From Planctomycetia bacterium (GTDB lineage Bacteria; Planctomycetota; Planctomycetia; Gemmatales; HRBIN36): a stretch of 33,487 nt of DNA. Both the position numbers and the translations under genes were made by a program. Location: positions 1-33,487 of the forward strand of contig JAEUIE010000011.1 in assembly GCA_016795155.1 (NCBI GenBank), in the 5' to 3' direction. Shown here piece after piece: positions 3,260-23,412 of this stretch (position 1 is its first letter; each line of letters begins with the position of its first letter). The notes under the pieces are model-generated. The model saw only the letters and a list, made by a program, of their open reading frames with translations. It made no database searches and had not been told where the DNA came from.

Positions 3260-5821
3260 TTACTGATTAGCATTCCAGAGAATCGACAGTACGGGATCCT
3301 GTGATAGCGACTTTTTAAGCTGACCATCGGCTTGTTTATAAAGTTTGGCACAAATGGCTTTGATATTTGTATTCATCTGCTGGGTGACCTCATCAGGCCG
3401 TTTGTCGTGCTGGTAAATGACCGCAACTAATCGAAAGAGGTAAACTAATTCATCATTGGTGAGTTCTAATTCTGCTAACGATGAGATTTCCTTGTTAGCC
3501 TGGCTCCACTGAGAAGCTCGTGTCAGGCTGTTCAGACGCATAAAACGATACTGGCGATTATGCGGAGCGCTTCGGCTCACTACTTCATCCCAATAGGGCA
3601 CTGCCAGTATTGGGCGTCTCGTCTGATCGTACAGATTAGCTATGGAACCATTCAGCGATATTTGCATTCGCTTGGCATCAGCGTAACCTGATTCTTGTTT
3701 CAATACCTGCTCAATCAGTTTCAGTCCAGCCTGATACGAAGTCAGGGCAAAGTCAACAAAGCCCTGGCTACCCTGCATATTGCCTTTGTTCAAAAGCAGC
3801 GATGCCAGAGAGACCTGAAACTCCAGGGTCTCTGGAACGGTATTCACCAAGTGCTTTAACAGTGTTTCCGCCTCGTTAAGATGACGATGTGCCGGTACAA
3901 GCTTTGTCGATAACTGTTCGACCAAAGCCAGATTCACTAGGCTCTCTGCCAACTGCGACTGAATCTCTGGATTGTTCGCATTTCTGGTTCGTAAGGCTTG
4001 TCGAAGAAGTACCGCTTGTTCGAATTGCATTCCAGCTTCCCTCTGCTGCCCCAGTTGAAGCAATGCCACTCCCAGATTATGGTGTGACCATGCAAGATCA
4101 TGCTGAAGTGCCAATTGCTCCGGATTGCCCTCAATCAGTTGCCTGGCAAGCTTTTGCGAATGCGAGTAACTCTCAGCAGCCTGTTTTGCCTTACCTTGAG
4201 ACATTTGAGCGCTGCCAAGCTTGTTCCAGGCAGCCATGCGCATCCCCCCAAGTTCTGTTTGGTTCCATTCCAATTTCTCCAGCAGCGAAATTGCTCGTGT
4301 GAGTGATGCCTCGGCCTGGTCATTTCGTCCTAGGATCGATTGCAGTGTGCCTGCGGAGGTCAATGTTACAGCCGTATCAAACTGCACTTCAGGCTTGTCA
4401 TCATCTGCATCAGCAAGAATGCTCTCGTAGAAAGCCAACGCCTCATCGAGCTGCTTGCTCTGCAGTTGCCGAGCGCCTTCCAGTTGGCTTGAAGGCATAC
4501 CATTGATTCTGGAAAGCATCTGCTGGATGGTCTGTCTGGCTTTACGGTAGTTCGCGTCAGCTCGCGACTTTTCTGTTTCAACACGGGTGATCGCTTTCTG
4601 CAACTCAACATTGTGGACTATCAGGCCAGTAATAACTGCAGCAATCATGACGGTGAGCAGGCAAAGGAGCGCAGTAGGCCAGGGGTGCCGCCTCATCCAT
4701 TTGACACTGCGTTCCAATGGCGTTGCGTGACGAGCCAGAATGGGCTGGTGCTGACGATACCGCTTGAGATCCTCTGCCAGGTCCAATGCGCTGCCATATC
4801 TCTTGTCAGGTTCCTGCTGCAGACATTTCAGACAGATGGCTTCGAGTTCCTTTGATATTCCGGGGGTCAATTGTCTGAGCGGCGTCGGATCATACTTCAG
4901 CACAGCTTCCAGCGAAATCCAGTTTGAATCCTTCGCATAGGGCGCTTTGCCAGTCAGGCATTCATAAAGGATAGCGCCTAAAGCAAATACATCCGTTGGC
5001 GCGGACATGCGTTCGACATCACCCCGGATTTGTTCAGGAGCCATGTACCCCGGCGTGCCCATCATCGCCCCTGCAGCCGACATGGTCTGCGCTTCTTGCC
5101 CCTGCAGCAGCTTGGCTAATCCAAAGTCTGCGATCTTCGGAACCAGAGTGCTCAGTACTTTCTGTTGAGCACCGAGCACTGAGTACTGAGCACTTAACAG
5201 GATATTTGCAGGCTTGAGATCACGGTGCAGAATGCCCAGGACATGTGCCTCATGAATGGCACGTGCTATCGTCTCAATCAAATCTGCTGCCACCGGTTCA
5301 GACAACGGCCCTCGTTCAAGCAATTGTGCCAGCGATTCGCCTTCCACCAGTTCCATCGCGAAGTACGGAACAGGCAACCCTTCCTCGGTGGCACTTTCCC
5401 CTACTTCGTAAATCTGAACAATGCCCGGATGTACAAGCTTGGCGACAATCTCCGCTTCACGCAGAAACCGCTTTTGTTCGCTGTAGTTCGCTAGTGAGCC
5501 GTTCTTGATCTTCTTGAGAGCTACCAGTCGGTTGAGTTTGCGGTCTCTCGCGCGGTAAACAACTCCCATGCCGCCCTGGCCCAGTTCGTCAAGAATTTCG
5601 TACCCCGATTGCTGTTTGACAGACTTGCTGTTCGATGCTACAGGCAATGATCGAAAGAGTTGTGTAAAGCGATCATCAGGCAAGTCTGCCACATAAGCCT
5701 GACATTTTTCGCAATGGCACAAATGCTCTTCAACCAGGGCATGAGCATCGCCATTGAGCAGTCCGTTGCCGAAGTCAGCCAAAGTCTGTGCAACAGGATG
5801 TTCTGAAGTCATGGTAGGCAT
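3260..5821 (-). CDS. Ser/Thr protein kinase with N-terminal zinc-finger, one TM segment and C-terminal TPRs
   Basis: Membrane-anchored Hanks-type kinase of about 853 aa. Residues 33-40 (HLCHCEKC) match the HxxxCxxC zinc-binding motif of anti-sigma factors. The kinase domain spans about 73-360, with GQGGMG loop, VALKK lysine, HRDLKPAN catalytic loop, DFG, and YMAPE. A hydrophobic segment lies at about 380-401, then a long helical TPR region that is probably extracytoplasmic. An 18-residue insert between HRDLKPANILL and PKIADFGLAK matches a palindromic DNA repeat (5148-5193). I chose the ATG at 5821 because AAGAGG, overlapping the stop of the preceding gene, lies upstream; an in-frame start at 5857 and another ATG at 5812 are possible. 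In planctomycetes such kinases often sit near ECF sigma genes, and this one shares the strand with the ECF gene at 14.3 kb. Confidence 0.9.
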   Translation of the reverse strand: MPTMTSEHPVAQTLADFGNGLLNGDAHALVEEHLCHCEKCQAYVADLPDDRFTQLFRSLPVASNSKSVKQQSGYEILDELGQGGMGVVYRARDRKLNRLVALKKIKNGSLANYSEQKRFLREAEIVAKLVHPGIVQIYEVGESATEEGLPVPYFAMELVEGESLAQLLERGPLSEPVAADLIETIARAIHEAHVLGILHRDLKPANILLSAQYSVLGAQQKVLSTLVPKIADFGLAKLLQGQEAQTMSAAGAMMGTPGYMAPEQIRGDVERMSAPTDVFALGAILYECLTGKAPYAKDSNWISLEAVLKYDPTPLRQLTPGISKELEAICLKCLQQEPDKRYGSALDLAEDLKRYRQHQPILARHATPLERSVKWMRRHPWPTALLCLLTVMIAAVITGLIVHNVELQKAITRVETEKSRADANYRKARQTIQQMLSRINGMPSSQLEGARQLQSKQLDEALAFYESILADADDDKPEVQFDTAVTLTSAGTLQSILGRNDQAEASLTRAISLLEKLEWNQTELGGMRMAAWNKLGSAQMSQGKAKQAAESYSHSQKLARQLIEGNPEQLALQHDLAWSHHNLGVALLQLGQQREAGMQFEQAVLLRQALRTRNANNPEIQSQLAESLVNLALVEQLSTKLVPAHRHLNEAETLLKHLVNTVPETLEFQVSLASLLLNKGNMQGSQGFVDFALTSYQAGLKLIEQVLKQESGYADAKRMQISLNGSIANLYDQTRRPILAVPYWDEVVSRSAPHNRQYRFMRLNSLTRASQWSQANKEISSLAELELTNDELVYLFRLVAVIYQHDKRPDEVTQQMNTNIKAICAKLYKQADGQLKKSLSQDPVLSILWNANQ
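5148..5193. repeat. palindromic element inside the kinase gene
   Basis: Two 12-base arms (GTGCTCAGTACT at 5148-5159 and AGTACTGAGCAC at 5182-5193) form a perfect inverted repeat around 22 bases that themselves contain related GAGCAC/GAGCACT words. On the minus strand it is read through in frame and encodes QYSVLGAQQKVLST, exactly the extra residues between the catalytic loop and DFG. It looks like a small mobile palindrome that landed in a tolerant loop. Confidence 0.75.
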
Positions 5822-5831: not shown

Positions 5832-6497
5832 TTACCTCTTCGGAGGCATCTCGCCAATCACTTTTTTGCCATCACGATAGGGGCTTATCGTCCAGACATA
5901 GAAGCCAAATGTTTTGTCGTTCCGTTCCTTGATGGGATCAACCGAAAAACGATAGGGTTTGCCCCAGGGATCATTGACTCCATCAGGTGAAATATTGGAT
6001 GCTTTATTCTTCATTTTTATGATGTCATCGAGCGTTTGAGGCACACAGTCTTCCAGTTTATTATTCGGGTCTTTCAAGTGTTCCTGAATGTATTGTTTTA
6101 TCGCTGAAGAAAAATGCCCGACGTCCATCCGGGCAAAAAACTCATCGCGCCCCTCCAGCATGCGGATTATTTCCGTTGGTGACACGTGTCGATAGAGGTC
6201 GGGACGCTTTCTAAAAAGCAGTTTGAATGCACGAATAGTGTCGTCTTCTGCTTTCTCCAGAGCCATAATGCGCCCGCTCTGCGGGTTAGTCTCTTGCAGA
6301 TTCTTGGCTTGTATATCCAGGGCAATCATTTTTTCGTGAATCTTGTCCAGCTGTTGCCTGGCATGCAGAGCTGAAGCTGTATCTCTTATCGAGTTTAGAG
6401 CCTCCGCAGTATCTTGAGTCAGCATTACCCTCTGTTTGATGTACTCTGCTGAAATGCGTGGTGGTACATCAGAATATATGGTGAGGCTGAATATCAA
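5832..6497 (-). CDS. secreted protein with pseudopilin-like C-terminus; signal peptide cut by an in-frame TGA
   Basis: The function is unknown. The C-terminus (DPWGKPYRF, FYVWTISPYRDGKKVIG, ending MPPKR) is closely related to the end of the 881-aa protein at 7598 and resembles the DPWG.PY block of type II secretion major pseudopilins. The middle is helical and charged. The start is problematic. An ATG at 6527 with a good GGGAG box would give MRSLGTLF, then TGA (6501-6503), then CLIFSLTIYSDVPP, together a convincing signal peptide. So the natural start seems lost to a nonsense codon or sequencing error. The frame after the TGA begins at a TTG (6497). The ATG at 6425, with GAGGG close upstream, is a possible internal start giving a protein with no export signal. 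It lies 10 bases before the kinase start, so it is probably co-transcribed with it. Confidence 0.7.
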   Translation of the reverse strand: MIFSLTIYSDVPPRISAEYIKQRVMLTQDTAEALNSIRDTASALHARQQLDKIHEKMIALDIQAKNLQETNPQSGRIMALEKAEDDTIRAFKLLFRKRPDLYRHVSPTEIIRMLEGRDEFFARMDVGHFSSAIKQYIQEHLKDPNNKLEDCVPQTLDDIIKMKNKASNISPDGVNDPWGKPYRFSVDPIKERNDKTFGFYVWTISPYRDGKKVIGEMPPKR

Positions 6498-7597: not shown

Positions 7598-10243
7598 TTA
7601 CTTCTTCGGCGGCATCGTGCCCAGCACCTTCTTGCCATCGCCAAACTGACTGATTGTCCAGACATATGGTGTAGACTTGCTGTCATCCTTTTCACCAGTG
7701 ACGTTGACAATTTCAAACTGGTAGGGCTTGCCCCACGGATCGCTCACGGAACCTTCGTGGTATTTTTTCAGCGATTCAAGTGAGGCAGGCCAATGCCTGT
7801 TCGCCTGGTAGTAAATAGTGATCGCCAGTTTGATCCTCATTACGTCGCTTTGAGCAATAGCCTCCAAACTAGCTTCGCCGACCTTGATCAGCTCAGCATC
7901 TTCAAGAATTCGATATGTCGCTGGTCTTTCCGCATGTAGTTGCTTGAAAGCTGAAGCAAATGCTTCCTTGGCAGGTTCCATCTTTTCCTGGAACATCAGC
8001 ATCAGTCCTTTTTGCTGGTCGCTCGAAAGCTTTAACGATTTCATGACCTTGCTAATGTCTGCAAATTTCTTGTCAAGTTCCATGAAGCGTGGCTTGATTT
8101 TGCTTGCCGAAGCAAAGTCTGTTGCCTGGTTCATCAGCTTGGCCCCTTCGAGATAAATGCCATTCAGGTCCTTGATGGCATCCTGAGCTTTGGTCAGCTC
8201 GTCCTGTTCGCCAGCAGGTTTTTGCTCGGACTGTTTCTTACTCTGTAGTTCAGTGATTTTGCCCCGACTTTCGGCGACCGTTAGGTTGGAGGCATCCTCC
8301 TTCGAAGCGTCCCCAAGTCGGCGCATCATTTCAGGGGTTAGCTCTGTCACGCGTTGGCTTCCACTGAACAATTTGGGATCGATCTTGATTTTCAATTCGC
8401 CTGAATCATCTCCTATTGTCCTGGTGAAAGCCGAGTAAGCTGCTTCATAGGCAACCTCACGGGTGCGATGTTTTCCAGCCAGGATATCGGCTGTGATGGT
8501 GTCGTAGGCTTTTGCAAGGGACTTCATGCTGTTTTGCCAGGCCGGGGTAGTGCCCAACTCAGCGAAGACGCTGGCGGTGCGTAGCCACAACCGCCAGGAA
8601 TCGCCAAACCGGTGAGCCACGATTTTCCATTTTTCTTTAGTGCCCGTGGTCATCTTGGCTTCCACGTTCATGGTAACGACCTTGCCCAGGGATGTGTCAT
8701 AATCGAGCACGGTGAGAGTGCTTACCTGCTTCATCTGACCGCGCAGAAAGCCAGCGTCGATACCGAAAGGAAAGAACTCGTTCTTCTGGCCAAATTGCCG
8801 GTCCATGGCAGCCAACATTTTTTGCTTAGATTGTCCGACAGCTTTGGCGAGCGTGAAGCCCTCGTCATACAGGGTGTTGAATGGCCCCGCAGTCAACTTG
8901 ATGATGCAATCGAAATCGCCAGCCTTCAAGGCGTCTTCATACTGCTTGACAATATCCTGAATGGCCTTCTTGTCAGTGTCCGTCAATGCTTTACCTTCAT
9001 CCTTTTGCTTATACTGCAAAGGCACTGATGACGCATCACGAGAGAACAACTCGATAGCTTTAGCCTGAGCTAAGCGTTTGAACTGATCTTCTTTCGATGA
9101 ACTCTCCTGAATCTCATGCTTCACACCCTGTTGTGAAACAGACTGATAAGCTTTGAATGCAGCCTCCTTGACTGCTTCGCGCGAGGAATATTTACCATTC
9201 AATACGTCGCGGGCAACCTGTTGGTACAGTCCCGCGAGCTTGTCGAGTGTATTCTCGGCTGCCTTGGTCAGGATCACAGCCTCCTTGTTATCAGCCAACT
9301 GAATCCAGAGCTTCCATTGGTCATACTGTTTGCTCGCGATGATCTTCCAGGATTCAGATTTTCCTGTGGATAGCTCTGCCTCCACATAGAGTGTCACGCT
9401 CATCTTGCCTGCATTTTCAATGCTGCGAACCGTCAGAGCTTTGGTTCGCATCATCCGCTTTTGCAGTGTCTCATCATCGGAGCCGTAAGGAATGTTGTCG
9501 TCCTGGCGACCGAATTGACTGTCCATGGCAACAAGAATCAACCGTTTCGCATCGCCTACTTTGGCTAGAGCCAGCAGCGAGAAGCGGAGTTTAGTCTTTT
9601 CCGGTTCGGAGGTGAGTTTCAAGTACTGGTTAAGGTCGCCCGTCTTGAAGGCTGTTTCGTAGCCGCGAACCGCCTGTTCAAGGGCCTGCTTGTCAGCTTC
9701 AGTGAACGATGGCGACAGGACGGCTGGCTGATTGAAATCTGCATACAACACCTTGCGGCGTTCTGCTGATACGGCACCGGGCAAGGCAAGTTTCAAATCC
9801 TTCACGACTTCTTCAATTTTAAAGAAACCTTCCATCCGATAGCATTCCGTGAGTGCATCCGTTCTGGGCTCGATAATGCTTACGGTGGGATAAACAGTCA
9901 GCTTCAAATGAGATGCCATTCGTCGGGCATACTCGTCCTCATGTGCAAACCCCTTGGCAAAAATGGCTTTACCTTTGAACATCAGCAATTCCTTGCTGTT
10001 GAGCACTACCTGGAAATCATTGCTGAGGTTGCGTTGGTTTTCATAGCGGTCTTTGGGATTAGCGAGAAAGACCACAACCAGAGGCATCTCCTCTTCCACA
10101 GCTTTCACGAAGGCATCGAGAGTATTCAATTCCCATTGAATGTGATTGGGCTCAGCTTTGGCTTGAGGTTTGTCATCAGCGCGAATCGTGCCAGTGCAGG
10201 CAGAAATAATGATGAGGCTGAGATATCGAATGCAGGGTTTCAT
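7598..10243 (-). CDS. large exported protein: thioredoxin-fold-like N-terminus, duplicated middle domain, pseudopilin-like C-terminus
   Basis: 881 aa, function unknown. A signal peptide at the start contains a possible lipobox (IIISACTG). Residues about 40-150 look like a thioredoxin fold (VVVFLANP, later LTVYPTVSIIEP) but lack a CxxC, so redox activity is unlikely. A domain of about 170 residues then occurs twice, at about 180-355 and 430-600; compare AMDSQFGRQDDNIPYG with AMDRQFGQKNEFFPFG, and SWKIIASKQYDQWKLWI with KWKIVAHRFGDSWRLWL. The last 50 residues (SDPWGKPYQF, PYVWTISQFGDGKKVLG) match the end of the gene at 5832. GGGAG lies eight bases before the ATG. The family appears planctomycete-specific, but I cannot check that here. 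Confidence 0.85.
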   Translation of the reverse strand: MKPCIRYLSLIIISACTGTIRADDKPQAKAEPNHIQWELNTLDAFVKAVEEEMPLVVVFLANPKDRYENQRNLSNDFQVVLNSKELLMFKGKAIFAKGFAHEDEYARRMASHLKLTVYPTVSIIEPRTDALTECYRMEGFFKIEEVVKDLKLALPGAVSAERRKVLYADFNQPAVLSPSFTEADKQALEQAVRGYETAFKTGDLNQYLKLTSEPEKTKLRFSLLALAKVGDAKRLILVAMDSQFGRQDDNIPYGSDDETLQKRMMRTKALTVRSIENAGKMSVTLYVEAELSTGKSESWKIIASKQYDQWKLWIQLADNKEAVILTKAAENTLDKLAGLYQQVARDVLNGKYSSREAVKEAAFKAYQSVSQQGVKHEIQESSSKEDQFKRLAQAKAIELFSRDASSVPLQYKQKDEGKALTDTDKKAIQDIVKQYEDALKAGDFDCIIKLTAGPFNTLYDEGFTLAKAVGQSKQKMLAAMDRQFGQKNEFFPFGIDAGFLRGQMKQVSTLTVLDYDTSLGKVVTMNVEAKMTTGTKEKWKIVAHRFGDSWRLWLRTASVFAELGTTPAWQNSMKSLAKAYDTITADILAGKHRTREVAYEAAYSAFTRTIGDDSGELKIKIDPKLFSGSQRVTELTPEMMRRLGDASKEDASNLTVAESRGKITELQSKKQSEQKPAGEQDELTKAQDAIKDLNGIYLEGAKLMNQATDFASASKIKPRFMELDKKFADISKVMKSLKLSSDQQKGLMLMFQEKMEPAKEAFASAFKQLHAERPATYRILEDAELIKVGEASLEAIAQSDVMRIKLAITIYYQANRHWPASLESLKKYHEGSVSDPWGKPYQFEIVNVTGEKDDSKSTPYVWTISQFGDGKKVLGTMPPKK

Positions 10244-11807: not shown

Positions 11808-12389
11808 TCAATCAGGCCCACGCCAGGCAACCGCTTCCAACAACGATGGAACAGCGACTTTCGCCTTCGGCCCAATGGCCCCTAATATGTTGATTGCCAA
11901 TTGTTGATGCCGTTCTGTTAATCGCCACTTTCCGAGCAAAGGCAGAAGCTGTGGAACGGCTTTCTCAGCAAGTGGCCCCATCTTAAAAAGGATCTCGCCT
12001 GACCTTCTGCGGAAATCTTCGTTTTTGGAATCGATATTCAGTTCTGCAAATGTTTCTGCCAGCACTGGAACGGCTTCGCTTGCAGACGCGCCCATTTCCA
12101 CCAGAGCCTTCGATGCTTCTATGCGAAACGCATCATAATAATCACCTTTTTTGGTCACGATCTCCACAAGCATGGGCACGGCATCAGAACCACCCTGGCA
12201 TAACTGTCTGAAATCCTCCCAATCCCACTTACCTTCTACATCGTTCCAGTTACTCATCGGCTTGCCAGCAATGAACTGTTCACCACGCAGCCAACCCACC
12301 AATGGATATCGCACGCCCGGTAGCAGCAGCAATGCTCCAGCGAACAGTGTCAGCAATGCAATGGAGATTACAAGAGTTCGTTTGGACAC
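11808..12389 (-). CDS. membrane-anchored HEAT-repeat protein, upstream fragment
   Basis: About 193 aa if started at the GTG (12389). A hydrophobic helix follows (LVISIALLTLFAGALLLLPG), then HEAT-type helices (RIEASKALVEMGASASEAVP, KMGPLAEKAVPQLLPLLG). HEAT repeats form curved helical scaffolds for protein binding; the partner is unknown. Upstream of the GTG is only a weak GGTGG; the longer frame from 12461 adds an N-terminus that overlaps the upstream gene. The frame ends at a TGA in mid-repeat and continues directly into 11178-11795, so the pair is probably a disrupted gene, or a sequencing error mimics a stop. Confidence 0.7.
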   Translation of the reverse strand: MSKRTLVISIALLTLFAGALLLLPGVRYPLVGWLRGEQFIAGKPMSNWNDVEGKWDWEDFRQLCQGGSDAVPMLVEIVTKKGDYYDAFRIEASKALVEMGASASEAVPVLAETFAELNIDSKNEDFRRRSGEILFKMGPLAEKAVPQLLPLLGKWRLTERHQQLAINILGAIGPKAKVAVPSLLEAVAWRGPD

Positions 12390-12415: not shown

Positions 12416-13000
12416 TTACAAGCTGGAAGCAGATTGCGATTGAGTGCTGGAGCGGAACCACGATATGAAGATGACAACCAGGCTGATGAAGCCAAACAAC
12501 AGCGAAATGGTTTTGGCGAACCAGAGAATCATGACGACTTTCTGCCCATGGTATTGCACACTTTCGTTATCTACTCTGCCTGTTTTGGCATCGCCAAAGA
12601 CGTGCACGCTGTAATCATCAGGCAGATAGGTCACCGGAAAGGTGCTGCTTTTCTTCGAAAAATAGTCGGTGTTGGGCGGCGTGCGACCTGATTCAAAATA
12701 CTTGGTATCTCCATCCACTTTGAAGCAATACTTGAACGTCGTGTAACCGCCTCGACCACCAACTCGCACAGCTAGCGTCTGTCCCGTCAATTCAGCGGTT
12801 GTCACGATGCCTTCTTCATGAAGCTGCTCCAGGGCACTGTCTCGCGTAAAGCGTAGTGCAAGGTATTCCACCACAAAAATCGCACCGATGACCAGTGCCA
12901 GGGTGAAGATCGATTTGAAGAGCCAAACGGTATCGTTCTCAACTTTCGTTGGAAGTTCTTCAGTAGGTGCAGAAGAAAAGTGCTGCTGAGAAAGGCTCAT
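12416..13000 (-). CDS. DUF3592-like membrane protein
   Basis: 194 aa. It has a hydrophobic segment at residues about 32-52 and a second near the C-terminus (VVMILWFAKTISLLFGFISL). Between them is a soluble beta-rich domain with a pattern like DUF3592 proteins: GIVTTAELTGQ, a YTTFKYCFKVDG strand pair, then FPVTYLPDDYSVHVFGD. The role of that family is not known to me. I chose the ATG at 13000 (MSLSQQHF), with CTGGAG about ten bases upstream; the frame extends to 13183 but that part overlaps the promoter-like motif. Its own upstream motif (13038-13068) suggests regulation by the nearby ECF sigma factor. Confidence 0.8.
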   Translation of the reverse strand: MSLSQQHFSSAPTEELPTKVENDTVWLFKSIFTLALVIGAIFVVEYLALRFTRDSALEQLHEEGIVTTAELTGQTLAVRVGGRGGYTTFKYCFKVDGDTKYFESGRTPPNTDYFSKKSSTFPVTYLPDDYSVHVFGDAKTGRVDNESVQYHGQKVVMILWFAKTISLLFGFISLVVIFISWFRSSTQSQSASSL

Positions 13001-13037
13001 GAGATGGACTCCAGAAGCTAACGATTGACTTCTGGAA

Positions 13038-13068
13038 TGAAAATGCGCGAGAAACTGAATCCTTTCAA
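13038..13068 (-). promoter_or_regulatory. ECF-type promoter candidate, copy A
   Basis: Read on the minus strand: TTGAAAGG, seven variable bases, TTCTCGCGCATTTTCA. The same two boxes with the same seven-base spacer occur before the LRR gene (14269-14299). This copy ends 37 bases before the ATG of the DUF3592-like gene. The spacing and GC-rich downstream box fit a promoter used by an alternative sigma factor. Confidence 0.65.
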
Positions 13069-13179
13069 TAATTCTCCCAAAAGTGCTTACAATCAGGCAG
13101 GCCGACGTAACTATTTGATGGATAAGAAGATCTGGTTCGGCAACACCAGTAGTGGATTTGAACCGTAAAACTGTATGAA

Positions 13180-14232
13180 TCACTTTTTGAGTGATTTCAA
13201 TAGCCCCTGGATATTCATGGCAGGATCGCTGGTGATTCGCAGGTTCGGACAGGCCTTTCTCAGTTCATCGACACCCTGCGGAGTGACTGCTGTGCCATTC
13301 AGAGAGAGATTTTCCAGTTCTTTGAACTGAGGGATTATCTTTAAGGCTTTGTCGGATATCTTGGGGCATCTAAACAGTAGCAACGACTGGAGATGCTCTA
13401 TCTCCTTGAGTGATTCAATACCAGCAGCAGTCACCTGAGTTTCACTCAGATCGAGGCTGGTCAACTTCTTGCATGCTGCAAGTTCGCTGAGGCCTTCGTC
13501 ATGAACAGCTGAACGACGAAGGTCAAGGTATACCAGATTGTTTAAGGCAGCGACATCCTTCAACCCAGCACTGTTTACCTGAGTGCAAGCGAGTCGCAGT
13601 GTAGTGAGCTTCGTGAATCCCTTCAACTGCTTAAGCCCCCAATTGGTGACCCTGGTTCCATCGAGAGAAAGAGATTCCAGTTGTTTCATTTTTTGCAGAT
13701 GCTTGAGCCCTTCGTCGGTAACTCGCGTGCCGTAAGTTTCTAATGGGTGGGCGCCAAGCATGAGCGAGCGCATCTTTTGAAGGTTGGCGATTTCCTTGAT
13801 CCCCTCATCGCTTATGTCCGTAATACATAGGTTTAATTCTTCGAGATTCACCAGTTTACCAATACTCTTCATCGCTGCATCGGTAATGGGCGCCCGATCG
13901 AGATTAAGAAAAGCCAGCTGTTGCAATCCAGCTAATTCATTTATGACTTCATCGGTCATCTCACTTTTCTTAGGCCAGCGAGAAGACACTTCCAATGATC
14001 GAAGTTGAGGGAAAACCTTCATTTGCTTGAGTAACGAGGCTGGCGCTTTTGAAAGGATGATGTTGATACCGATAATCGGCTTACCCTGAGCATTTTCATC
14101 CCGTTCTATGCTGGCCCCATGTTTCACCAGTTCTTCGAGCACCTTGTCGTGTGATTCATCTGCATGCAAAGCAACAGGAAAAAAAAGCAGTACCAGGGCG
14201 ACAAGTGACAAACTGCGCACAACAGCATGCAT
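13180..14232 (-). CDS. exported leucine-rich-repeat protein
   Basis: About 350 aa. A signal peptide (VVRSLSLVALVLLFFPVALHA) is followed by a run of roughly ten LRR units of the ribonuclease-inhibitor-like type; examples are LAFLNLDRAPITDAAMKSIG, LEELNLCITDISDEGIKEIA and LTSLDLSETQVTAAGIESL. LRR proteins of this kind serve as binding scaffolds; the ligand is unknown. I preferred the ATG at 14232 because AAGGA lies eight bases upstream. The ATG at 14241 sits directly on the AAGG and is less likely. A promoter-like motif lies 36 bases upstream, between this gene and the sigma factor. Confidence 0.85.
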   Translation of the reverse strand: MHAVVRSLSLVALVLLFFPVALHADESHDKVLEELVKHGASIERDENAQGKPIIGINIILSKAPASLLKQMKVFPQLRSLEVSSRWPKKSEMTDEVINELAGLQQLAFLNLDRAPITDAAMKSIGKLVNLEELNLCITDISDEGIKEIANLQKMRSLMLGAHPLETYGTRVTDEGLKHLQKMKQLESLSLDGTRVTNWGLKQLKGFTKLTTLRLACTQVNSAGLKDVAALNNLVYLDLRRSAVHDEGLSELAACKKLTSLDLSETQVTAAGIESLKEIEHLQSLLLFRCPKISDKALKIIPQFKELENLSLNGTAVTPQGVDELRKACPNLRITSDPAMNIQGLLKSLKK

Positions 14233-14268
14233 GTAGATCATCCTTGCTCGAATGAACGAATACCGTTT

Positions 14269-14299
14269 TGAAAATGCGCGAGAACGAAGAACCTTTCAA
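14269..14299 (-). promoter_or_regulatory. ECF-type promoter candidate, copy B
   Basis: Read on the minus strand: TTGAAAGG, seven variable bases, TTCTCGCGCATTTTCA. It matches copy A (13038-13068) in both boxes and in spacing, while the spacers and flanks differ. It ends 36 bases before the preferred LRR start and lies just downstream of the ECF sigma gene. Confidence 0.65.
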
Positions 14300-14311: not shown

Positions 14312-14899
14312 TTAATCAAGCAGCCCCTGGCTTAATTCGCGTAACCTTTTGAGCACACGAGACTTGGCAATCAATACCGCATTAACGCTTAGTTCCATGG
14401 CCTGAGCAGTTTCACGGGCTGAAACGCCTTCAACTACCTGTCGTCGAAACGCCTGCCAGGTGGCCGGAGAAAACTCTGTTTCCATTTGAATCAGCAGTTG
14501 CTCAGCTACATGAGCATCATGCTCTCGATCCCACTGCAGGCTTAAGGGGCTTTGCGAATCAGCCAATTGTTCAAGTGCACCCAGGAAGGCCCCCTCATCC
14601 GTTTCCGAAACAGGTCGTTTTTGTCGCCACATCAACCGCAACCGGTTCACCGTCGTCGTTCTCAGCCAGGCACGAAATGCACCAGTGCGCTGTGAATGTT
14701 CAAATTGATTCAATTTGTTGAAAACCGTCAGCAACACGTCTTGAACAATGTCATCCATGTCCGATTCTGAACGGGAATGCGTTTTCAACCACTTGCGAAT
14801 GAGCGGCTGATAGATGGCTGCAAACCGGTTCCACGCCTGGTCATCAGGCGATTGACAGAGCCTTTCCAGCAAACTCAACGATGTTATCTTGGATGTCAT
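14312..14899 (-). CDS. RNA polymerase sigma factor, ECF subfamily
   Basis: 195 aa with the two-domain ECF layout. Region 2 is at about residues 25-95 (RFAAIYQPLIRKWL, then MDDIVQDVLLTVFNKL and RAWLRTTTVNRLRLMWR). Region 4 is at about 135-190 (ATWQAFRRQVVEGVSARETA, then ELSVNAVLIAKSRVLKRL). It recruits RNA polymerase to a specific set of promoters. No separate anti-sigma gene is adjacent, but a kinase with an anti-sigma-like zinc motif lies on the same strand. AAGG sits six bases before the ATG. The two motif copies just downstream are probable targets. Subfamily assignment would need a profile search. Confidence 0.92.
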   Translation of the reverse strand: MTSKITSLSLLERLCQSPDDQAWNRFAAIYQPLIRKWLKTHSRSESDMDDIVQDVLLTVFNKLNQFEHSQRTGAFRAWLRTTTVNRLRLMWRQKRPVSETDEGAFLGALEQLADSQSPLSLQWDREHDAHVAEQLLIQMETEFSPATWQAFRRQVVEGVSARETAQAMELSVNAVLIAKSRVLKRLRELSQGLLD

Positions 14900-16389: not shown

Positions 16390-16773
16390 TTAAGTCAGGA
16401 CGTGGTTACCATCTTCAAACCGTTCTTCGATAGACCGCAATCGGGCATCGAAGTCTTCATGGTCGCGAAGTTTACAGCTCAGTTCGATAATGGCCCGTGC
16501 AGCACCTAACCGGGCGGAAGACGAATGGGCCGTACCCAGCAACTGGATGAGTGTTCTTGCTGCTTCACTGGTGGCAGCATTCAATACCGAGAGGGTGCGG
16601 AAGATGATTTCACGGCGTACGTCCTGCAGGGTTTTCTGGAAGTCGGGGGCTGCAACACGGCGGAAGGCAGTAGCACGACTGATACCAGCACGTCGGGCAG
16701 CAGTTTCCACGTTGGCACCGCACGCCATGGCCTGCAGGAAGAGTTCATCTGATTTCCGTCGGCGCTTGGCCAT
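16390..16773 (-). CDS. helix-turn-helix protein, similar in layout to small terminase-like regulators
   Basis: 127 aa. The N-terminal half has a homeodomain-like HTH (NVETAARRAGISRATAFRRV), the second half a long helix pair (SEAARTLIQLLG, then ARLGAARAIIELSCKLR) ending in a charged coil. Proteins with this layout occur in mobile elements and can resemble small terminase subunits, but no large terminase is present, so a DNA-binding regulator is more likely. The start overlaps the stop of the methyltransferase by one base (TGATG), which implies translational coupling. Confidence 0.8.
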   Translation of the reverse strand: MAKRRRKSDELFLQAMACGANVETAARRAGISRATAFRRVAAPDFQKTLQDVRREIIFRTLSVLNAATSEAARTLIQLLGTAHSSSARLGAARAIIELSCKLRDHEDFDARLRSIEERFEDGNHVLT

Positions 16774-18068
16774 CAGTTCCCTCCTGGTCGCACTGCCTTC
16801 TTACCCGTGAACTGCTCCCAGCGCTGCACAATAATATCGCAGTAAAGTGGGTCCAGTTCCATCAGGTAGGCTTTGCGTCCCAGTTGCTGACAGGCAATGA
16901 GCGTGGAACCACTGCCACCGAAGAGGTCGAGAACGTTCTCCCCTGCTCTGCTCGAATACTCAATAGCACGGGCTGCCAGTTCCACGGGCTTCTCCGTCAG
17001 ATGTACCATGCTCTGGGGATTGACCTTCTTGATGGCCCACAAGTCGGTGGCATTATTGGGTCCGAAGAACTGGTGAGCTTTCCCCTCTTTCCAGCAGTAG
17101 AAACACCACTCATGCGCTCCCATGTAGTCTTTGCGGGTCAGCACCGGATGCTGTTTGTCCCAGATGATGGCCTGGCTGAAGTAGATACCATGGCGTTTGA
17201 GTGGTGCTGGATAGTTGGCCACGTTCGCATAACCGCCCCAGATATAGAGACTTCTCCCCGGATCCAGCACACGGGCCATATTACCAAACCAGGCGTCAAG
17301 CAGGCGGTCGAACTCCTGCTCGGACACAAAGTCGTTCGCCAGCGGTCTGTCCTTGGCCCTTAGCTTCTTATGGGTGGCTTGAGCTTTCTCGGGGTGTCGT
17401 GCCACGTCCAGTTTCTGATGATTCATTGTCTCAAACGAAGACAGCCCCGCCGCAATCGCATTATTGCTTCTCGGTTCGACTTTGACGTTGTACGGCGGGT
17501 CGGTGTTTACCAGTTGAATCGTTGCGCCACCAAGCAGCTTGTCCACATCAGTGGCGGAAGCCGAATCGCCACACAAAAGCACATGGTCACCCAGGATAAT
17601 GCGGTCACCAGGTTGGGTGATAGCGGCATCGGGTGGTTCGGGGATGGCATCAGCATCGGTTACTCCCTCCATGGGTGTGTTGAGCAATTCGTTAAGTTGT
17701 TCCTGGTCAAAGCCAATCAGGTCGAGGTCATAGTCCTGCTTCTGCAGTTCCAAGAGTTCTTCTGTCAGCTTGTCATCGTCCCAACTGCTTAACGTGGCAG
17801 TCTGGTTGTCCGCAATGCGGTAGGCCTGAATCTGGGACTGGGATAACCCTGTCGCGACATGTACCGGCACTTCCGTCATGCCCAGCTTCTGGGCAGCCTT
17901 GTAGCGGGTATGGCCCACCACGATGACACCAGCTTCATCCACGACGATAGGTTGTCGCCAGCCATATTCCCGGAGGGATTCGGCTACCGCATCGATGCCG
18001 TTATCGTTATGGCGGGGGTTGTTTTCGTAGGGACGAATACTGTCGAGCGGACGGAGTTCTACTTTCAT
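16773..18068 (-). CDS. ParB-domain DNA methyltransferase (N4/N6 type)
   Basis: About 431 aa. Residues 1-100 form a ParB/Srx-like N-terminal domain (LDSIRPYENNPRHND, then VVVGHTRYKAAQKLG). From about 150 on is an amino-methyltransferase with DPPYN (about 190) before the SAM-binding FGGSGST (about 384), the order of the beta class. It transfers a methyl group from SAM to adenine N6 or cytosine N4. Such ParB-methylase fusions are common in phages and integrated elements, usually without a partner nuclease; none is seen here. I chose the ATG at 18068 (MKVELRPL), where the domain begins; a GTG at 18095 would add nine residues. Neither has a strong ribosome binding site. Confidence 0.9.
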   Translation of the reverse strand: MKVELRPLDSIRPYENNPRHNDNGIDAVAESLREYGWRQPIVVDEAGVIVVGHTRYKAAQKLGMTEVPVHVATGLSQSQIQAYRIADNQTATLSSWDDDKLTEELLELQKQDYDLDLIGFDQEQLNELLNTPMEGVTDADAIPEPPDAAITQPGDRIILGDHVLLCGDSASATDVDKLLGGATIQLVNTDPPYNVKVEPRSNNAIAAGLSSFETMNHQKLDVARHPEKAQATHKKLRAKDRPLANDFVSEQEFDRLLDAWFGNMARVLDPGRSLYIWGGYANVANYPAPLKRHGIYFSQAIIWDKQHPVLTRKDYMGAHEWCFYCWKEGKAHQFFGPNNATDLWAIKKVNPQSMVHLTEKPVELAARAIEYSSRAGENVLDLFGGSGSTLIACQQLGRKAYLMELDPLYCDIIVQRWEQFTGKKAVRPGGN

Positions 18069-18474
18069 CGGGATACCGGCACCAGGTGAAAGCACCTATT
18101 GTGCGGGGTACCGCATTACGCTCAAAACCACCCAAAACTGCATGATGATATAGGGTTTATCCTCAATTTCCACACTCATAACCCGTCCACGATTTACGTC
18201 CATTTTATTTTCGTTTTGACCACTTTCCAATTCATCGAAGTCACTTATCTTCCAAATTAATGGAGCACATTTTCGCCATCAAAGTACGGAGACTTACCCA
18301 TTCTCGAAGTTCATCGTCGTCTCAAGTTCGTTCATCTCAGGGCCGTATTACCCATCTCCTTCATTCAGAAAAAACACACCCTCGCGGTACGCTTTATCAT
18401 CGTAGTGCAGTCCCAATGTTCTACACGAGGACTGACACGATGATTTCTGGCTGTGCAACTACAGGAGACAGCAG
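18069..18474. other. divergent control region of the mobile element
   Basis: About 406 bases between the leftward methyltransferase and the rightward gene set, so it should hold two opposite promoters. I see A+T-rich stretches around 18,150-18,270 and a GC-rich palindrome near the methyltransferase start. The last part ends with AGGAG before the gene at 18475. No gene is supported in it. Confidence 0.5.
18102..18115. promoter_or_regulatory. operator-like palindrome upstream of the methyltransferase
   Basis: TGCGG-GGTA-CCGCA: a perfect five-base inverted repeat around four bases, 34 bases before the chosen ATG and just before the alternative GTG. It could be an operator bound by the element's own HTH protein, or a leader hairpin. 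It is short, so chance is possible. Confidence 0.3.
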
Positions 18475-18798
18475 ATGGCAGTGACGAAGAAGCAGTTATC
18501 CCCTCCCAGGCTGCGATTATTGGAGCTGATGCAGAAAATGAACTTCTGCAAAATCAGACAACTCCACGTCCACAACGGTGAACCTGTATTTGAACCAGCA
18601 CCCGAAGTAGTTCAATACCTCAAAATCGGTGGCAACAACGACCCACGAGTCGAAATCCATTTACGAGACTATGCACTGAAACAGTCTCATCTCGAACTGT
18701 TTCAGCATTTCAGCGACTTGCAGAGCGGCATCATCGACGAACTCGAAGTTCGTTATGGCCTGCCTCAGGTCCTTCGTATTCAACGTGCCGTTGCCTAG
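18475..18798 (+). CDS. hypothetical protein, first gene of the rightward series
   Basis: 107 aa, soluble and charged, with no recognisable family. The N-terminus (MAVTKKQLSPPRLRLLELMQ) and the segment NFCKIRQLHVHNGEPVFEP suggest a small fold with a helix followed by strands; the rest is helical (DLQSGIIDELEVRYGLPQVL). AGGAG lies eight bases before the ATG, a good site. As the first gene past the control region it may be an early regulator of the element, but this is only a guess from position. Confidence 0.75.
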   Translation: MAVTKKQLSPPRLRLLELMQKMNFCKIRQLHVHNGEPVFEPAPEVVQYLKIGGNNDPRVEIHLRDYALKQSHLELFQHFSDLQSGIIDELEVRYGLPQVLRIQRAVA

Positions 18799-18868
18799 CT
18801 GACGGCTGAGTATTTCCTGATGTGGTGCATGATCGATACCGTCATGGCACCAGGGTGGAGACAAGAAC

Positions 18869-19264
18869 GTGGTCAGTAAAACCCTTTTCAGTTCGGCTTC
18901 CGACCGCTGGGCAACGCCCCAGGCGGTCTATGCTGCGCTGAATAAGGAGTTTCGCTTTAACTTTGACCCGTGCCCGCTCGATGGGAATGGCGATGGCCTC
19001 TCCCCCTTGTTCTGTCCCTGGCGGGGCAAACGGGTGTTCTGCAATCCACCGTACGGACCTGGTATCGGAGATTGGCTCGAGCGGGGCATGGAAGCCAAGG
19101 TAGCGGTCTACCTGCTTCCGGCACGCACGGATACCAAGTGGTTCCATCAACAGGTATTACCACACGCCACGGATATTCGGTTTATCAAGGGCCGACTCAA
19201 GTTTGGCGATGCTCGAAATTCTGCTCCGTTCCCCTCGATGATTGTGGTTTTGGGAAAACCCTGA
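18869..19264 (+). CDS. phage-type DNA N-6-adenine methyltransferase
   Basis: 131 aa, short like other members of the phage N-6-adenine methyltransferase group. Visible signatures are DRWATPQAVYAALNKEFRF, FDPCP early on, then VFCNPPYGPGIGDW with the NPPY catalytic motif, followed by VYLLPARTDTKWFH and a C-terminal FIKGRLKFGD. It would methylate adenine N6 in the element's or the host's DNA, possibly as protection from restriction. I chose the GTG at 18869 because GGAG lies nine bases upstream and the conserved part begins ten residues later. It is the second methyltransferase of the element. Confidence 0.88.
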   Translation: MVSKTLFSSASDRWATPQAVYAALNKEFRFNFDPCPLDGNGDGLSPLFCPWRGKRVFCNPPYGPGIGDWLERGMEAKVAVYLLPARTDTKWFHQQVLPHATDIRFIKGRLKFGDARNSAPFPSMIVVLGKP

Positions 19265-19356
19265 GGTCAGGGGCAGCGTTCCGGTTCACTTGTTTAACCC
19301 AAATGCGGTGCATGACGGGGTCCGTCCACGGTCCGCGGTGCGCGCAGAGGATGCTC

Positions 19357-20283
19357 ATGACCAAACGAGTCAACAAGCTATTTCGATATGGGGCAGCAAT
19401 TCATCCAGGCTTGGAGAAGCTCGGGCTTACCCCTAATCAATATCGCATTTATTGTTATTTGATTTTCAGAACGGGAAATAATGAACAGTGCTGGCCCAGC
19501 ATCTCCACCATCGCGGCGGACTGTCGAATGGGCAAAACTACGGTAAAAAAGGGACTCGCTGAACTCAGAACTTTAGAACTGGTAAAACCATTACCCTGCT
19601 GTGAAAAATCTGGGCGACGAACTTCCAATCGCTACGTGCTTCTGGGTATTTCTGGCAAACACCAGGGGTCGCCAAACGACTGGGGGACTGGTCGCCACGC
19701 GACTGGTCACCGGTCGCCAGACGACCACAAATATATATCAGATGAATGTATTACAAAAGAAATAATACATCATCATTCCAATCCATCAAAAACCAGACAA
19801 TGTACAGCTCTTCTAACCAGTGAATCCCTTCCAGAATCGCTGTATCCCTTTGAGGGAGCCTATACCGCTTCTACCCTGAATGAAGCCTGGAAGCTCACCA
19901 AGTCTTATTACCCGTTACATACGTTTGCCAAGACGCGCAAGGCAATGAGACAATGTGTCAGTGCCTTTGCTGCGCAAATCCAGTCCAACAGCCGGTTTGG
20001 CAATCACTTGCAAGCGTATCTGAAGCGCTTCAGTTCATTACCCCCGGAATCGTTGCAAGAACAGATTCGACAAGGCCAACTACTTTCCCTCCAAACGACT
20101 CCGTGGGAATTGGTAAAGCATATCAATCGAAATTACAAATCTGCCTCTCGACCCATCCCTAATGCCAGTAACAGCAGTGTCCTTGCTGGTCGCGCCCAAC
20201 GACGCCATGCAGCTCAGACGAAACCGCAAGCTCAATCTGAAACATTGACCCCAGAAACACTCAAGGAGAACCTACATGTCTGA
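19357..20283 (+). CDS. HTH_36-type protein, probable replication initiator or regulator
   Basis: About 308 aa. The N-terminal part contains a winged-helix/HTH pattern known from plasmid and phage replication proteins (LTPNQYRIYCYLIFRTG, CWPSISTIAADCRMGKTTVK, GLAELRTLELVKPL). The centre is polar and low in complexity. The C-terminal half is helical and basic. The start at 19357 has AGAGG six bases upstream; an ATG at 19351 and a longer frame from 18970 are less likely because they overlap the methyltransferase gene. Its stop overlaps the start of the DnaB-like gene by eight bases. An initiator followed by a DnaB-type helicase is a common replication pair, so this protein may load the helicase. 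Confidence 0.8.
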   Translation: MTKRVNKLFRYGAAIHPGLEKLGLTPNQYRIYCYLIFRTGNNEQCWPSISTIAADCRMGKTTVKKGLAELRTLELVKPLPCCEKSGRRTSNRYVLLGISGKHQGSPNDWGTGRHATGHRSPDDHKYISDECITKEIIHHHSNPSKTRQCTALLTSESLPESLYPFEGAYTASTLNEAWKLTKSYYPLHTFAKTRKAMRQCVSAFAAQIQSNSRFGNHLQAYLKRFSSLPPESLQEQIRQGQLLSLQTTPWELVKHINRNYKSASRPIPNASNSSVLAGRAQRRHAAQTKPQAQSETLTPETLKENLHV

Positions 20284-21643
20284 GAAGTCAGTTACACTGA
20301 GAACGGAACGTATGCCGCATGACCTGGAAGCAGAAAAAGAGCTCATCCGCAGCATTCTGGTCAATAACCAGGTCCTGGATGACGTTCGGAGACTCATTTC
20401 ACCCAATGATTTCTATGACTATCGCCACCAGTTAATCATGCGGGCTATTCTCAATCTGGCGGATCGCCAGGCGAGTACCGGGATAGATTTGATTACCCTG
20501 ACCCATGAATTAGAAAGGGAAGGTCAGCAAAAGGAACTAGGCGGTTGGCAGTACCTCCATGAGCTTGCAGATTTGGCTTTGCACAGTGTACATGCGACTC
20601 ATTACGCTCGGATTGTCAGCGAGAAATCAATTCAACGCATGCTGCTGCAGGCTGCTCAATCAATTCACCGCGAAGCATCATATCCTTCCGACCCTGAACA
20701 GCTATTGGAACACAGTGAACAACTCATCCTGCGTATTCGTGATGCGTCAAACGCCTCCGAAATCAAACCTCTTCAAGTCGGTTTACATAAGCTGTTGGAC
20801 CGTGCCGATGAACAGTGCTCTGGAAAAATTGAACGATGGTATACCGGGTTCCAGGAACTCGACAGTCTGGTGAAACTGTCTGCGGGAAAACTCATTATTA
20901 TTGCAGCACGCCCTTCGGTCGGAAAAAGTTTGCTCGCCACGCAGCTTGCCAAGCAAATCTCCGACCATGCTTCGGGCCGTCGTGCCGTTTATCTTTCCAG
21001 CCTGGAAATGGAAGATGAGGAAATTGCAGCTCGATTCGTAGCTTCATTCGGCAATGTCCCCATGGATGTTGCAAGTGTGGAACGTGTTCTCAATCGTCCC
21101 GAATCAGAACAATTAAGCGACGCTGTTCATCTGCTTGCTGACATACCCATCTTTATCAATGATTCCGGCACGCAGTCCTTAACGACGATTGCCGCTGATG
21201 CACGAAGGTTGAATCGCAAGCATGGACTTGGTCTGGTGGTCGTCGATTATCTGCAGTTAGTTACGTGCGAGACGAATCGGAACAAGAACCGTGCCGAAGC
21301 CATGGGAGAAATCTCCAGCGGCTTAAAGCGATTGGCCAAGGAGTTACAATGCCCGGTGATTGCGTTATGCCAGCTCAATCGCGAAGCAGATGATGTCAGC
21401 GAGCCACAATTACGCCATATCCGTGAAAGCGGAAATATCGAACAGGACGCTGACACGGTCTGGCTTCTCTGGCGTGAAGCCAAGGAAGTCATCGACCCTA
21501 ATGCTGACCAGGAAGTGTTCCTGAAGATAGCAAAGAATCGCCAAGGTCCCATTGGAACCATCAAACTTCTCCATCGCAAGGAATACATGCGATTCGAGGA
21601 ATTACTGTCTTATGACCAGCCATCCGTCATGAATGCTGAATAA
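20276..21643 (+). CDS. dnaB: DnaB-like replicative DNA helicase
   Basis: 455 aa, the usual length for DnaB. The N-terminal domain begins with MPHDLEAEKELIRSILVN and PNDFYDYRHQLIMRAILNL. The RecA-like domain has Walker A AARPSVGKS (about 211), GLVVVDYLQLV as Walker B, and the late ALCQLNREADD and HIRESGNIEQDADTVWLL motifs. It is a ring helicase that unwinds DNA ahead of the replisome. Given the neighbours, this copy probably serves the mobile element rather than the chromosome, but no other dnaB can be seen in the window for comparison. The ATG lies within the last codons of the preceding gene, so translation is coupled. Confidence 0.93.
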   Translation: MSEKSVTLRTERMPHDLEAEKELIRSILVNNQVLDDVRRLISPNDFYDYRHQLIMRAILNLADRQASTGIDLITLTHELEREGQQKELGGWQYLHELADLALHSVHATHYARIVSEKSIQRMLLQAAQSIHREASYPSDPEQLLEHSEQLILRIRDASNASEIKPLQVGLHKLLDRADEQCSGKIERWYTGFQELDSLVKLSAGKLIIIAARPSVGKSLLATQLAKQISDHASGRRAVYLSSLEMEDEEIAARFVASFGNVPMDVASVERVLNRPESEQLSDAVHLLADIPIFINDSGTQSLTTIAADARRLNRKHGLGLVVVDYLQLVTCETNRNKNRAEAMGEISSGLKRLAKELQCPVIALCQLNREADDVSEPQLRHIRESGNIEQDADTVWLLWREAKEVIDPNADQEVFLKIAKNRQGPIGTIKLLHRKEYMRFEELLSYDQPSVMNAE

Positions 21644-21655
21644 CGAGGAAATTAC

Positions 21656-21724
21656 ATGTGGACGCGAGAACTTAAAGGATATGGCTGGTGGTACGCTTCT
21701 GACTATCCGCCACCCATGACCTGA
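21656..21724 (+). CDS. possible 22-residue micro-ORF
   Basis: ATG with GAGGA seven bases upstream, then MWTRELKGYGWWYASDYPPP and MT before a TGA. It lies 12 bases after the DnaB stop in the same direction, with an unusual Trp/Tyr content. It is too short to prove by sequence alone; coupling with dnaB translation is plausible. Confidence 0.4.
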   Translation: MWTRELKGYGWWYASDYPPPMT

Positions 21725-21788
21725 CCGCATCGAAACGGAATCCCATGTCACCATTCACACTTTTCATGTTTCCCCGGAGGTAACTTCA

Positions 21789-22298
21789 ATGGACGTACCA
21801 CATCAGTTCACCGCAAACGACAGCCAGTCAGCATCCGTGTGGCCGAAAAAGCCCAAGATGACCATTCTCGGCAAAAGCCTACGAGGAATGGACGAAGCGT
21901 TGCGACGCGACAGGCTCCTCTATCTCCTTGGAGTCATCGAAGGCATCGCCTTTGAAACGGTCTATTTCATTGATGAACTCATCGACCATGGTAATTATCT
22001 GAAAGTAGTCTTGGAAACCACGCCTTCCCTTGAGCATATGGCCTGTGTCCTGGATGCCTGGAAGCAGTATTCCGTCAGCGGCGACGGAGCTGTTGAACAT
22101 ACCGTTCGGACCAAATCATCCTGCTTTACAGCAGTCTATGCACATTCTCTAACTGACCTGCAGTTGCACCGCACTGCATTCCCTAGCAGAACGATTGCAC
22201 TGAACATCGAGCCAGAAGATGAACCATCTCACCATTCCGAAATGGATGAAGATGAGTCCCTGGTTGAAGAGCAGGACAGTGAACAATTACCCTTCTGA
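21789..22298 (+). CDS. hypothetical protein with SSB-like acidic C-terminal tip
   Basis: 169 aa. GGAGG sits seven bases before the ATG, one of the strongest sites in the window. The core (residues about 25-130) has a helix-rich beginning (MTILGKSLRGMDEALRRDRL, LLGVIEGIAFETVYFIDELI). The last 35 residues are very acidic and end in EEQDSEQLPF. An acidic tail ending in hydrophobic-Pro-Phe is the hallmark by which SSB proteins recruit replication partners. The body does not look like a standard OB-fold SSB to me. Its place right after the helicase gene supports a replication role, but this is inference. Confidence 0.78.
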   Translation: MDVPHQFTANDSQSASVWPKKPKMTILGKSLRGMDEALRRDRLLYLLGVIEGIAFETVYFIDELIDHGNYLKVVLETTPSLEHMACVLDAWKQYSVSGDGAVEHTVRTKSSCFTAVYAHSLTDLQLHRTAFPSRTIALNIEPEDEPSHHSEMDEDESLVEEQDSEQLPF

Positions 22299-22310
22299 CA
22301 ACAGGTTGAC

Positions 22311-22331
22311 GAGCGATGGCGTTCATCGCTC
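22311..22331. promoter_or_regulatory. hairpin before a small gene
   Basis: GAGCGATG-GCGTT-CATCGCTC: perfect eight-base stem, five-base loop, in the 58-base gap after the SSB-tail gene. No T-run follows, so it is not a standard terminator. It could shield mRNA ends or tune translation of the following gene. Confidence 0.45.
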
Positions 22332-22356
22332 ACACCTACTTCCTGGAGAGTATGAA

Positions 22357-22680
22357 ATGAAGATTCCGCTGGTTATTCGGAACAATGAGTCGCATGAAAC
22401 GTCATGTATTGACAACGAACCGTTAGCTCGCCAAATGCTGGCTCAGCTGCAGAAAATCTCTCCGGAGAGCCTTGCTGGTATCCGGCTGGTTGAGATTACC
22501 TCTCAAGCGATAGTGCTGCATTGGGCCAAAGTACCTGAACCATGGCACTTTGAATCTCTGAGCGATTGGTGGAGTGCATCAGCCTCGGAGTCGAAGGTAC
22601 AGATGCACTGGTATTCCGAATCCGTAGCTCCAACTTACAACCGGAAAGAGATACCTACTTTGCGCCGTGTCTATTCCTGA
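22357..22680 (+). CDS. hypothetical small protein of the mobile element
   Basis: 107 aa, soluble. It begins MKIPLVIRNNESHETSCIDN and has a helix (LARQMLAQLQKISPESLAGI), then a strand pair (RLVEITSQAIVLHWAKV) and a Trp-rich region (FESLSDWWSASASESK). GGAG lies eight bases before the ATG at 22357. The longer frame from 22219 overlaps the preceding gene and lacks a site. No family is recognised. Confidence 0.72.
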   Translation: MKIPLVIRNNESHETSCIDNEPLARQMLAQLQKISPESLAGIRLVEITSQAIVLHWAKVPEPWHFESLSDWWSASASESKVQMHWYSESVAPTYNRKEIPTLRRVYS

Positions 22681-22768
22681 TGTACTTCTGCATTCAGTGT
22701 CGGCTTCATGCCAACATTGGTCATGGCCATCAGAAGCCACCTGCATCAACTTCTTTGAACGGAATCTC

Positions 22769-22954
22769 ATGGTATTTGACTACACACAAGTGAACCGGCA
22801 AGAATTAGCATCTCTCCTCGCCCTGGTCACCTACCGCATTCTGACCCGGCAGAAGTTACCGCATTCCAGCCAACATTCCCTTGATGTCCTTCCAAAAGAA
22901 GTGCTCAGTGTCTCCAAGACGGTTAACGCCCACGGAGAACAAGGAGACGCATGA
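22769..22954 (+). CDS. small protein preceding the recombinase operon
   Basis: 61 aa. It begins MVFDYTQVNRQELASLLALV and ends with GEQGDA. Its TGA overlaps the first ATG of the DUF2924 gene by four bases (ATGA), which suggests it is translated and coupled to it. Only a weak GGA site is present at its start. The helix after residue 9 and the polar tail do not show a known domain. Small proteins are often found just upstream of DUF2924-recombinase pairs, so it may belong to that module. Confidence 0.6.
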   Translation: MVFDYTQVNRQELASLLALVTYRILTRQKLPHSSQHSLDVLPKEVLSVSKTVNAHGEQGDA

Positions 22955-23412
22955 TGGACTTGAAGCAGAAACTGACCTCACTGCCACACCTGCGGGTGAC
23001 TGACCTGCGACAGATGTACGCCGAGGTCTTTGGCGAACCAACGAATGCGAACAACCGCGACTGGCTGACCAAACGGCTTGCCTGGCGATTGCAGGCGCAG
23101 GCCATGGGTGGTCTTTCGGAACGGGCGATGGCACGAGCTAAAGAACTGGCTCGCGAAGAAGACCTGCGAGTGACACCACCACCGGTAGCCACGATACCCA
23201 TTTCCCAGCCACGGGATACCCGACTGCCAACGCCCGGTGCCGTTATTACCCGCACCTACAAAGGCGTCCAACACCATGTCGAAGTGCTGGCCGACGGCTT
23301 TATCTGGAACGGGAATACTTACACGACACTGACTGCTGTGGCTAAGGCCATCACGGGCCAGCACCTCAACGGCTTCGCCTTCTTCGGCATCAAGCGGGGA
23401 GGGAAGCAATGA
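22951..23412 (+). CDS. DUF2924 protein, partner of the serine recombinase
   Basis: 153 aa. The N-terminal half has the DUF2924 pattern (LRVTDLRQMYAEVFGEPTNA, NRDWLTKRLAWRLQAQAMGG). The C-terminal half has the matching small beta domain (GAVITRTYKGVQHHVEVL, DGFIWNGNTYTTLTAVAKAI, then FAFFGI). DUF2924 genes are known to lie directly before large serine recombinases in mobile elements; the role is unproven, and DNA binding or a directionality function is plausible. AAGGAG lies five bases before the ATGATG. The stop overlaps the recombinase start by four bases. Confidence 0.9.
   Translation: MMDLKQKLTSLPHLRVTDLRQMYAEVFGEPTNANNRDWLTKRLAWRLQAQAMGGLSERAMARAKELAREEDLRVTPPPVATIPISQPRDTRLPTPGAVITRTYKGVQHHVEVLADGFIWNGNTYTTLTAVAKAITGQHLNGFAFFGIKRGGKQ

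Follow-up and report, generated by a model that had tools for sequence, protein, structure and literature searches.

Two identical bipartite sites stand directly downstream of a gene for an ECF-type sigma factor in the stretch of planctomycete DNA analysed here (33,487 nt, called the window), each a short distance before the start of another gene. Judged from their sequence and placement, they appear to form a genuine and specific pair of regulatory sites confined to this locus, and promoters are their most likely function. We assign a probability of about 0.5 to the reading in which they are promoters, possibly overlapped by an operator, of a local regulon of two units, with the adjacent sigma factor recognising them and a kinase controlling that factor.

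A pair of bipartite sites beside a sigma factor gene

The window holds exactly two copies of the pattern TTGAAAGG-N7-TTCTCGCGCATTTTCA, both on the minus strand. The number remains two when as many as three mismatches are allowed, whereas 100 dinucleotide-preserving shuffles yield none. The features that matter for the argument are as follows.

14312..14899, minus strand: ECF-type sigma factor gene, 195 aa (Pfam Sigma70_r2, NCBIfam sigma70-ECF)
14269..14299, minus strand: copy A of the bipartite site, 12 nt past the sigma stop codon and 36 nt before the ATG at 14232
13180..14241, minus strand: leucine-rich-repeat (LRR) protein gene with a signal-peptide-like start, beginning at ATG 14241 or 14232
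13038..13068, minus strand: copy B of the bipartite site, 37 nt before the ATG at 13000
12416..13000, minus strand: gene for a 194-aa protein with two hydrophobic spans, with copy B upstream
3260..5821, minus strand: Ser/Thr kinase gene (HxxxCxxC N-terminus, TPR repeats), last gene of the same-strand cluster

The two copies are direct repeats, 1231 nt apart, that flank the LRR gene on either side. An initial annotation of this DNA had described two identical boxes with a gap of seven bases, differing surroundings, distances of 37 and 36 bases to the preferred starts and no third copy in the window, and each of these statements was reproduced. The boxes agree at 24 of 24 positions and the 7-nt spacer at 1 of 7, while the 30-nt flanks agree at 7 positions upstream and 13 downstream. 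The next best place in the window matches only 16 of 24 positions, which is the level of first-order Markov sequence (16-17 in 6 trials). Because the limits of the boxes were picked after the match was seen, the contrast between boxes and spacer is suggestive and not a clean test.

Both copies contain TTGAAA-17-CATTTT, or alternatively TGAAAG-16-CATT, which is the geometry of a promoter. A simple sigma-70 consensus scan calls neither copy, and CATTTT is poor as a -10 element. ECF promoters of the Bacillus SigW/SigM type read TGAAAC-16-CGTA or CGTC. The window sites have equal geometry and likewise precede genes next to a sigma gene, and their -35 part resembles ECF promoters. They differ in the poor -10 match, in conservation that runs through half of the spacer and in the lack of a site before the sigma gene. 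The eight bases TTCTCGCG upstream of the presumed -10 element are also identical in both copies, which suggests an extended contact or an overlapping operator.

The starts of the two genes affect how the distances are read. In the LRR frame, the earlier ATG at 14241 lies only 27 nt past copy A, and 14232 is the second in-frame ATG of the leader. For the 194-aa gene, ATG 13000 is preceded by GGAG approximately 10 nt upstream; its frame extends without a stop as far upstream as a GTG at 13183, and use of that GTG as the real start would place copy B within the coding sequence. A terminator-like stem (13149-13132) separates the LRR gene from copy B; structures of this type are only mildly enriched (6 found versus 3.2 expected). 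The leader of the 194-aa gene (12998-13037, minus strand) also carries an 11-bp hairpin, CCAGAAG...CTTCTGG, directly after copy B, which covers the GGAG before ATG 13000 (z -1.85; 10 of 200 shuffles as stable); the LRR leader has no such hairpin.

Searches for further copies

The genome from which the window derives (5,277,399 bases in 68 contigs, approximately 97% complete) contains only the two known sites when the full motif is searched with up to three mismatches. At the same setting, the motif is absent from 60 other genomes and from 101 other genomes of the order, two overlapping sets in which the nearest relatives searched belong to other genera. Given that no close copy was found elsewhere in the assembled genome, the twin sites are probably a small private switch. 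The exact pattern is also missing from viral contigs, and a phage origin of the motif was rejected on this basis.

Half or core patterns, again with up to three mismatches, gave more sites than their reversed-pattern controls in three sets (46 versus 32, 95 versus 17 and 77 versus 48). At face value, the second excess counts against a tiny regulon. Part of the surplus over the controls in these sets stems from word composition and a repeated element. We viewed 88 of these loci in context (30 of 46, 30 of 95 and 28 of 77), of which 84 are not the known sites. The 28 non-self loci of the 95-site set score 13-17 of 24 for the full motif, and several of them are one repeated element (L126, L142, L149); among the 56 non-self loci from the 46- and 95-site sets, none exceeds 17/24. 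Open frames of 150 aa or more enclose most of the loci viewed (25/30, 26/30 and 21/28 in the 46-, 95- and 77-site sets). This class wrongly captures known sites (one in the 46-site set, both in the 95-site set), since in both genes the open frame continues upstream beyond the start codon.

Only two of the 88 loci lie clear of long frames and precede a start by 15-80 nt, namely copy A itself (L092) and L157, a weak match with three mismatches that is the sole such case among the 84 non-self loci. The initial annotation had expected more copies before exported-protein genes, and this expectation failed, with none present genome-wide at up to three mismatches. The opposite outcome that it had envisaged, copies scattered without relation to genes, was likewise not observed. 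A wider regulon is thus rejected at the sensitivity used, that is, the full motif with up to three mismatches and the half or core loci viewed in context. Within the window, the half motif occurs three times, two of these being copies A and B, compared with 0.49 expected from dinucleotide shuffles. The repeated element mentioned above begins CTAGAGCATTTTCAGTTCCATTC and is found at several places in the genome, including L126, L142 and L149.

The sigma factor, its probable partner kinase and the genes between them

The sigma factor matches Pfam Sigma70_r2 (E 3.7e-11) and NCBIfam TIGR02937 (sigma70-ECF; 63.8 bits, cut-off 42.9), both above cut-offs. The region upstream of its gene lacks the motif (best score 12/24); autoregulation through a site before the sigma gene is common in ECF systems and is not required. 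For comparison, 20 sigma loci were assembled from the best matches of 89 of 149 genomes, comprising 4 paralogues from the same genome and 16 loci from other genomes. Beside these 20 genes, nothing comparable to a repeated bipartite site in non-coding DNA was recognised, and most high-scoring repeats there look coding. The window motif scores at chance level in 39 of the 40 regions before and after them, the exception being the region downstream of L089 (18/24 versus a maximum of 16 in 60 shuffles). The initial annotation's proposal of a dedicated promoter is partly supported: geometry, free spacer and fixed distance to the starts fit it, whereas the presumed link to the ECF sigma factor gains nothing from the region upstream of the sigma gene or from the 16 homologues and 4 paralogues.

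The kinase gene stands 8.5 kb downstream of the sigma gene on the same strand. A search of the same genome with the sigma-adjacent kinase of L077, a locus from another genome of the same class, placed the window kinase first of 45 matches (426 bits versus 370 for the next). Compared with the proteins of the 20 sigma loci, the window kinase is in turn most similar to kinases encoded next to the sigma genes in L083 (394 bits) and L077 (385 bits). At the sigma loci themselves, a kinase lies downstream on the same strand in 13 cases, upstream on the same strand in 3 and divergently in 1; it was not seen at the remaining three of the 20 (L079, L080 and L089), of which L079 and L080 are near contig ends. 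The window kinase is the probable partner of the sigma factor. The motif-bearing genes are thus enclosed between the sigma gene and a kinase gene of the usual sigma-partner kind that follows it on the same strand. The N-terminus of the window kinase reads HLCHCEKC, and HxxxCxxC occurs in 17 of 18 aligned kinases, the sole exception (L072b) having no sigma-gene neighbour. HxxxCxxC is the signature of zinc anti-sigma domains, and the kinase N-terminus may be zinc-anti-sigma-like. The sigma factor of L077 is as near to a paralogue from the window's genome in L071 (191 bits) as to the window sigma factor (189 bits), so that the latter is only a possible orthologue of the kinase-linked sigmas. A further sigma-kinase pair, at L003, has a sigma factor with 47% identity and comes from a record titled Candidatus Kuenenia stuttgartiensis MAG, a title that may not fit the contig.

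In six ECF groups, according to PMC8999054, the sigma gene occurs alongside a Ser/Thr kinase gene, and phosphorylation has been proposed as their mode of activation; the acidic DAED motif of region 2.2 is absent from ECF43. The window sigma factor resembles the kinase-linked ECFs covered there (EcfK/PknS, EcfP/PknT and ECF43) in that its relatives mostly adjoin a Ser/Thr kinase gene. It differs from them in the approximately 8.5 kb of other genes that separate sigma and kinase and in the HxxxCxxC N-terminus of the kinase. In the region 2.2 alignment it carries DMDD where the DAED motif would stand, which sets it apart from ECF43 as there defined.

Of the two genes with upstream sites, the LRR gene fits the exported products that the initial annotation had in mind, whereas the 194-aa product, with two hydrophobic spans judged by eye, looks like a membrane protein. 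The latter has no homologue in the 60 other genomes and only a sub-threshold Pfam match to SUR7/PalI. Further downstream on the same strand are HEAT-repeat genes, genes for small membrane proteins and for proteins of 881 and 221 aa, and lastly the kinase gene. The gaps between these genes are mostly short, so that one long transcript is possible and the same-strand cluster may be co-transcribed. In one HEAT-repeat gene (approximately 12389 to 11178), an in-frame TGA at 11808-11810 (minus strand) breaks the reading frame, which continues beyond it with HEAT repeats; this is either a mutation or a sequencing error. The 221-aa and 881-aa genes have a common 69-nt end (5832-5900 and 7598-7666, minus strand; 77% identical) that encodes a DPWGKPY...YVWTIS...GDGKKV-like C-terminus.

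Proposed dedicated promoters and competing explanations

If the sites are promoters, the adjacent ECF sigma factor would guide polymerase to TTGAAAGG as the -35 element and CATTTT as the -10 element, and transcription would start approximately 30 nt before the LRR gene and likewise before the membrane-protein gene. The second unit could extend through the same-strand genes as far as the kinase. The kinase, with its possibly zinc-anti-sigma-like N-terminus, would keep hold of the sigma factor, or modify it, pending a signal. Two conserved boxes at promoter spacing, with an unconstrained spacer and a constant distance to the gene starts, are consistent with a dedicated promoter. From position only, it is plausible that both sites are read by the adjacent sigma factor.

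In favour of promoters we count the exact boxes with their free spacer, the distances of 36 and 37 nt, the stem at 13149-13132, the same-strand kinase and the confinement of the only two genomic sites (at up to three mismatches) to the DNA directly downstream of the sigma gene. Against them we count the lack of a copy before the sigma gene, the lack of a footprint in relatives, a sample of two, the identity of TTCTCGCG beyond what a sigma site alone would need, the miss by the sigma-70 scan, the poor -10 element, a sigma factor that is only a possible orthologue of the kinase-linked ones and the GTG at 13183 that, if it is the real start, would make copy B coding. A stricter version of the promoter reading is doubtful. 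It would have sigma factor and zinc-anti-sigma-type kinase bracket surface-protein genes in a closed regulon with only two promoters genome-wide, the second also driving the kinase, so that the module regulates itself and little else.

Kinase-linked ECF sigmas are numerous in Planctomycetota. A limited literature survey, including PMC8999054, PMC8103513, PMC11032199 and PMC8567305, yielded no mapped target promoter of a planctomycete kinase-linked ECF sigma, and one may be in print. The sites are ordinary in kind; what adds interest is that a sigma gene and a kinase gene enclose the genes that carry them. If the promoter reading is true, they supply a defined promoter candidate that comes in two natural versions differing in the spacer, and their regulon would be small enough for one experiment.

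A separate DNA-binding regulator might instead bind the boxes and control both genes, with transcription left to another sigma factor or a sigma-70-like polymerase. The 24 constrained bases, including a 16-base block, exceed sigma contacts, the sigma gene has no copy, and the motif is bounded by a 5-bp inverted repeat (TGAAA, TTTCA), although this dyad is short and may be chance. The neighbouring gene nevertheless encodes a sigma factor, no dedicated regulator gene lies beside the sites, and the boxes occur at promoter spacing. We consider such an operator pair somewhat unlikely; it keeps a sizeable share because TTCTCGCG is also identical before the -10 element.

Recent local copying, in which a short stretch was duplicated or converted and identity reflects common history instead of function, would account for there being only two copies at a distance of 1231 nt, for the 13/30 agreement of the downstream flanks and for a local alignment upstream of the two copies (p 0.033 against shuffles). 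Neutral decay would not spare the boxes alone, and with boxes at 24/24, a spacer at 1/7 and upstream flanks at 7/30, plain recent duplication is improbable.

Least probable of all is a repeat without a role in transcription, be it an RNA element in the leaders, for which an internal hairpin was ruled out since the motif is no more stably folded than its shuffled versions (z 0.61 and 0.80 for the two copies), or a pair of recombinase sites around the LRR gene, a reading favoured by the direct repeats on both sides of it and by a serine recombinase gene in the window (23409-24968). Recombining sites must have identical central bases, and here these are precisely the ones that differ; the recombinase gene is also 9 kb away, amid other mobile-element genes.

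That region (16773-24968) contains genes for ParB_N/DNA methylase, HTH_36, DnaB helicase, DUF2924 and serine recombinase proteins, a content that suggests a mobile element adjoining the sigma locus. At the right end of the window, positions 33461-33476 hold a word that recurs near the beginning of a second contig from this genome (C54:12-27), and thus the two contigs may overlap.
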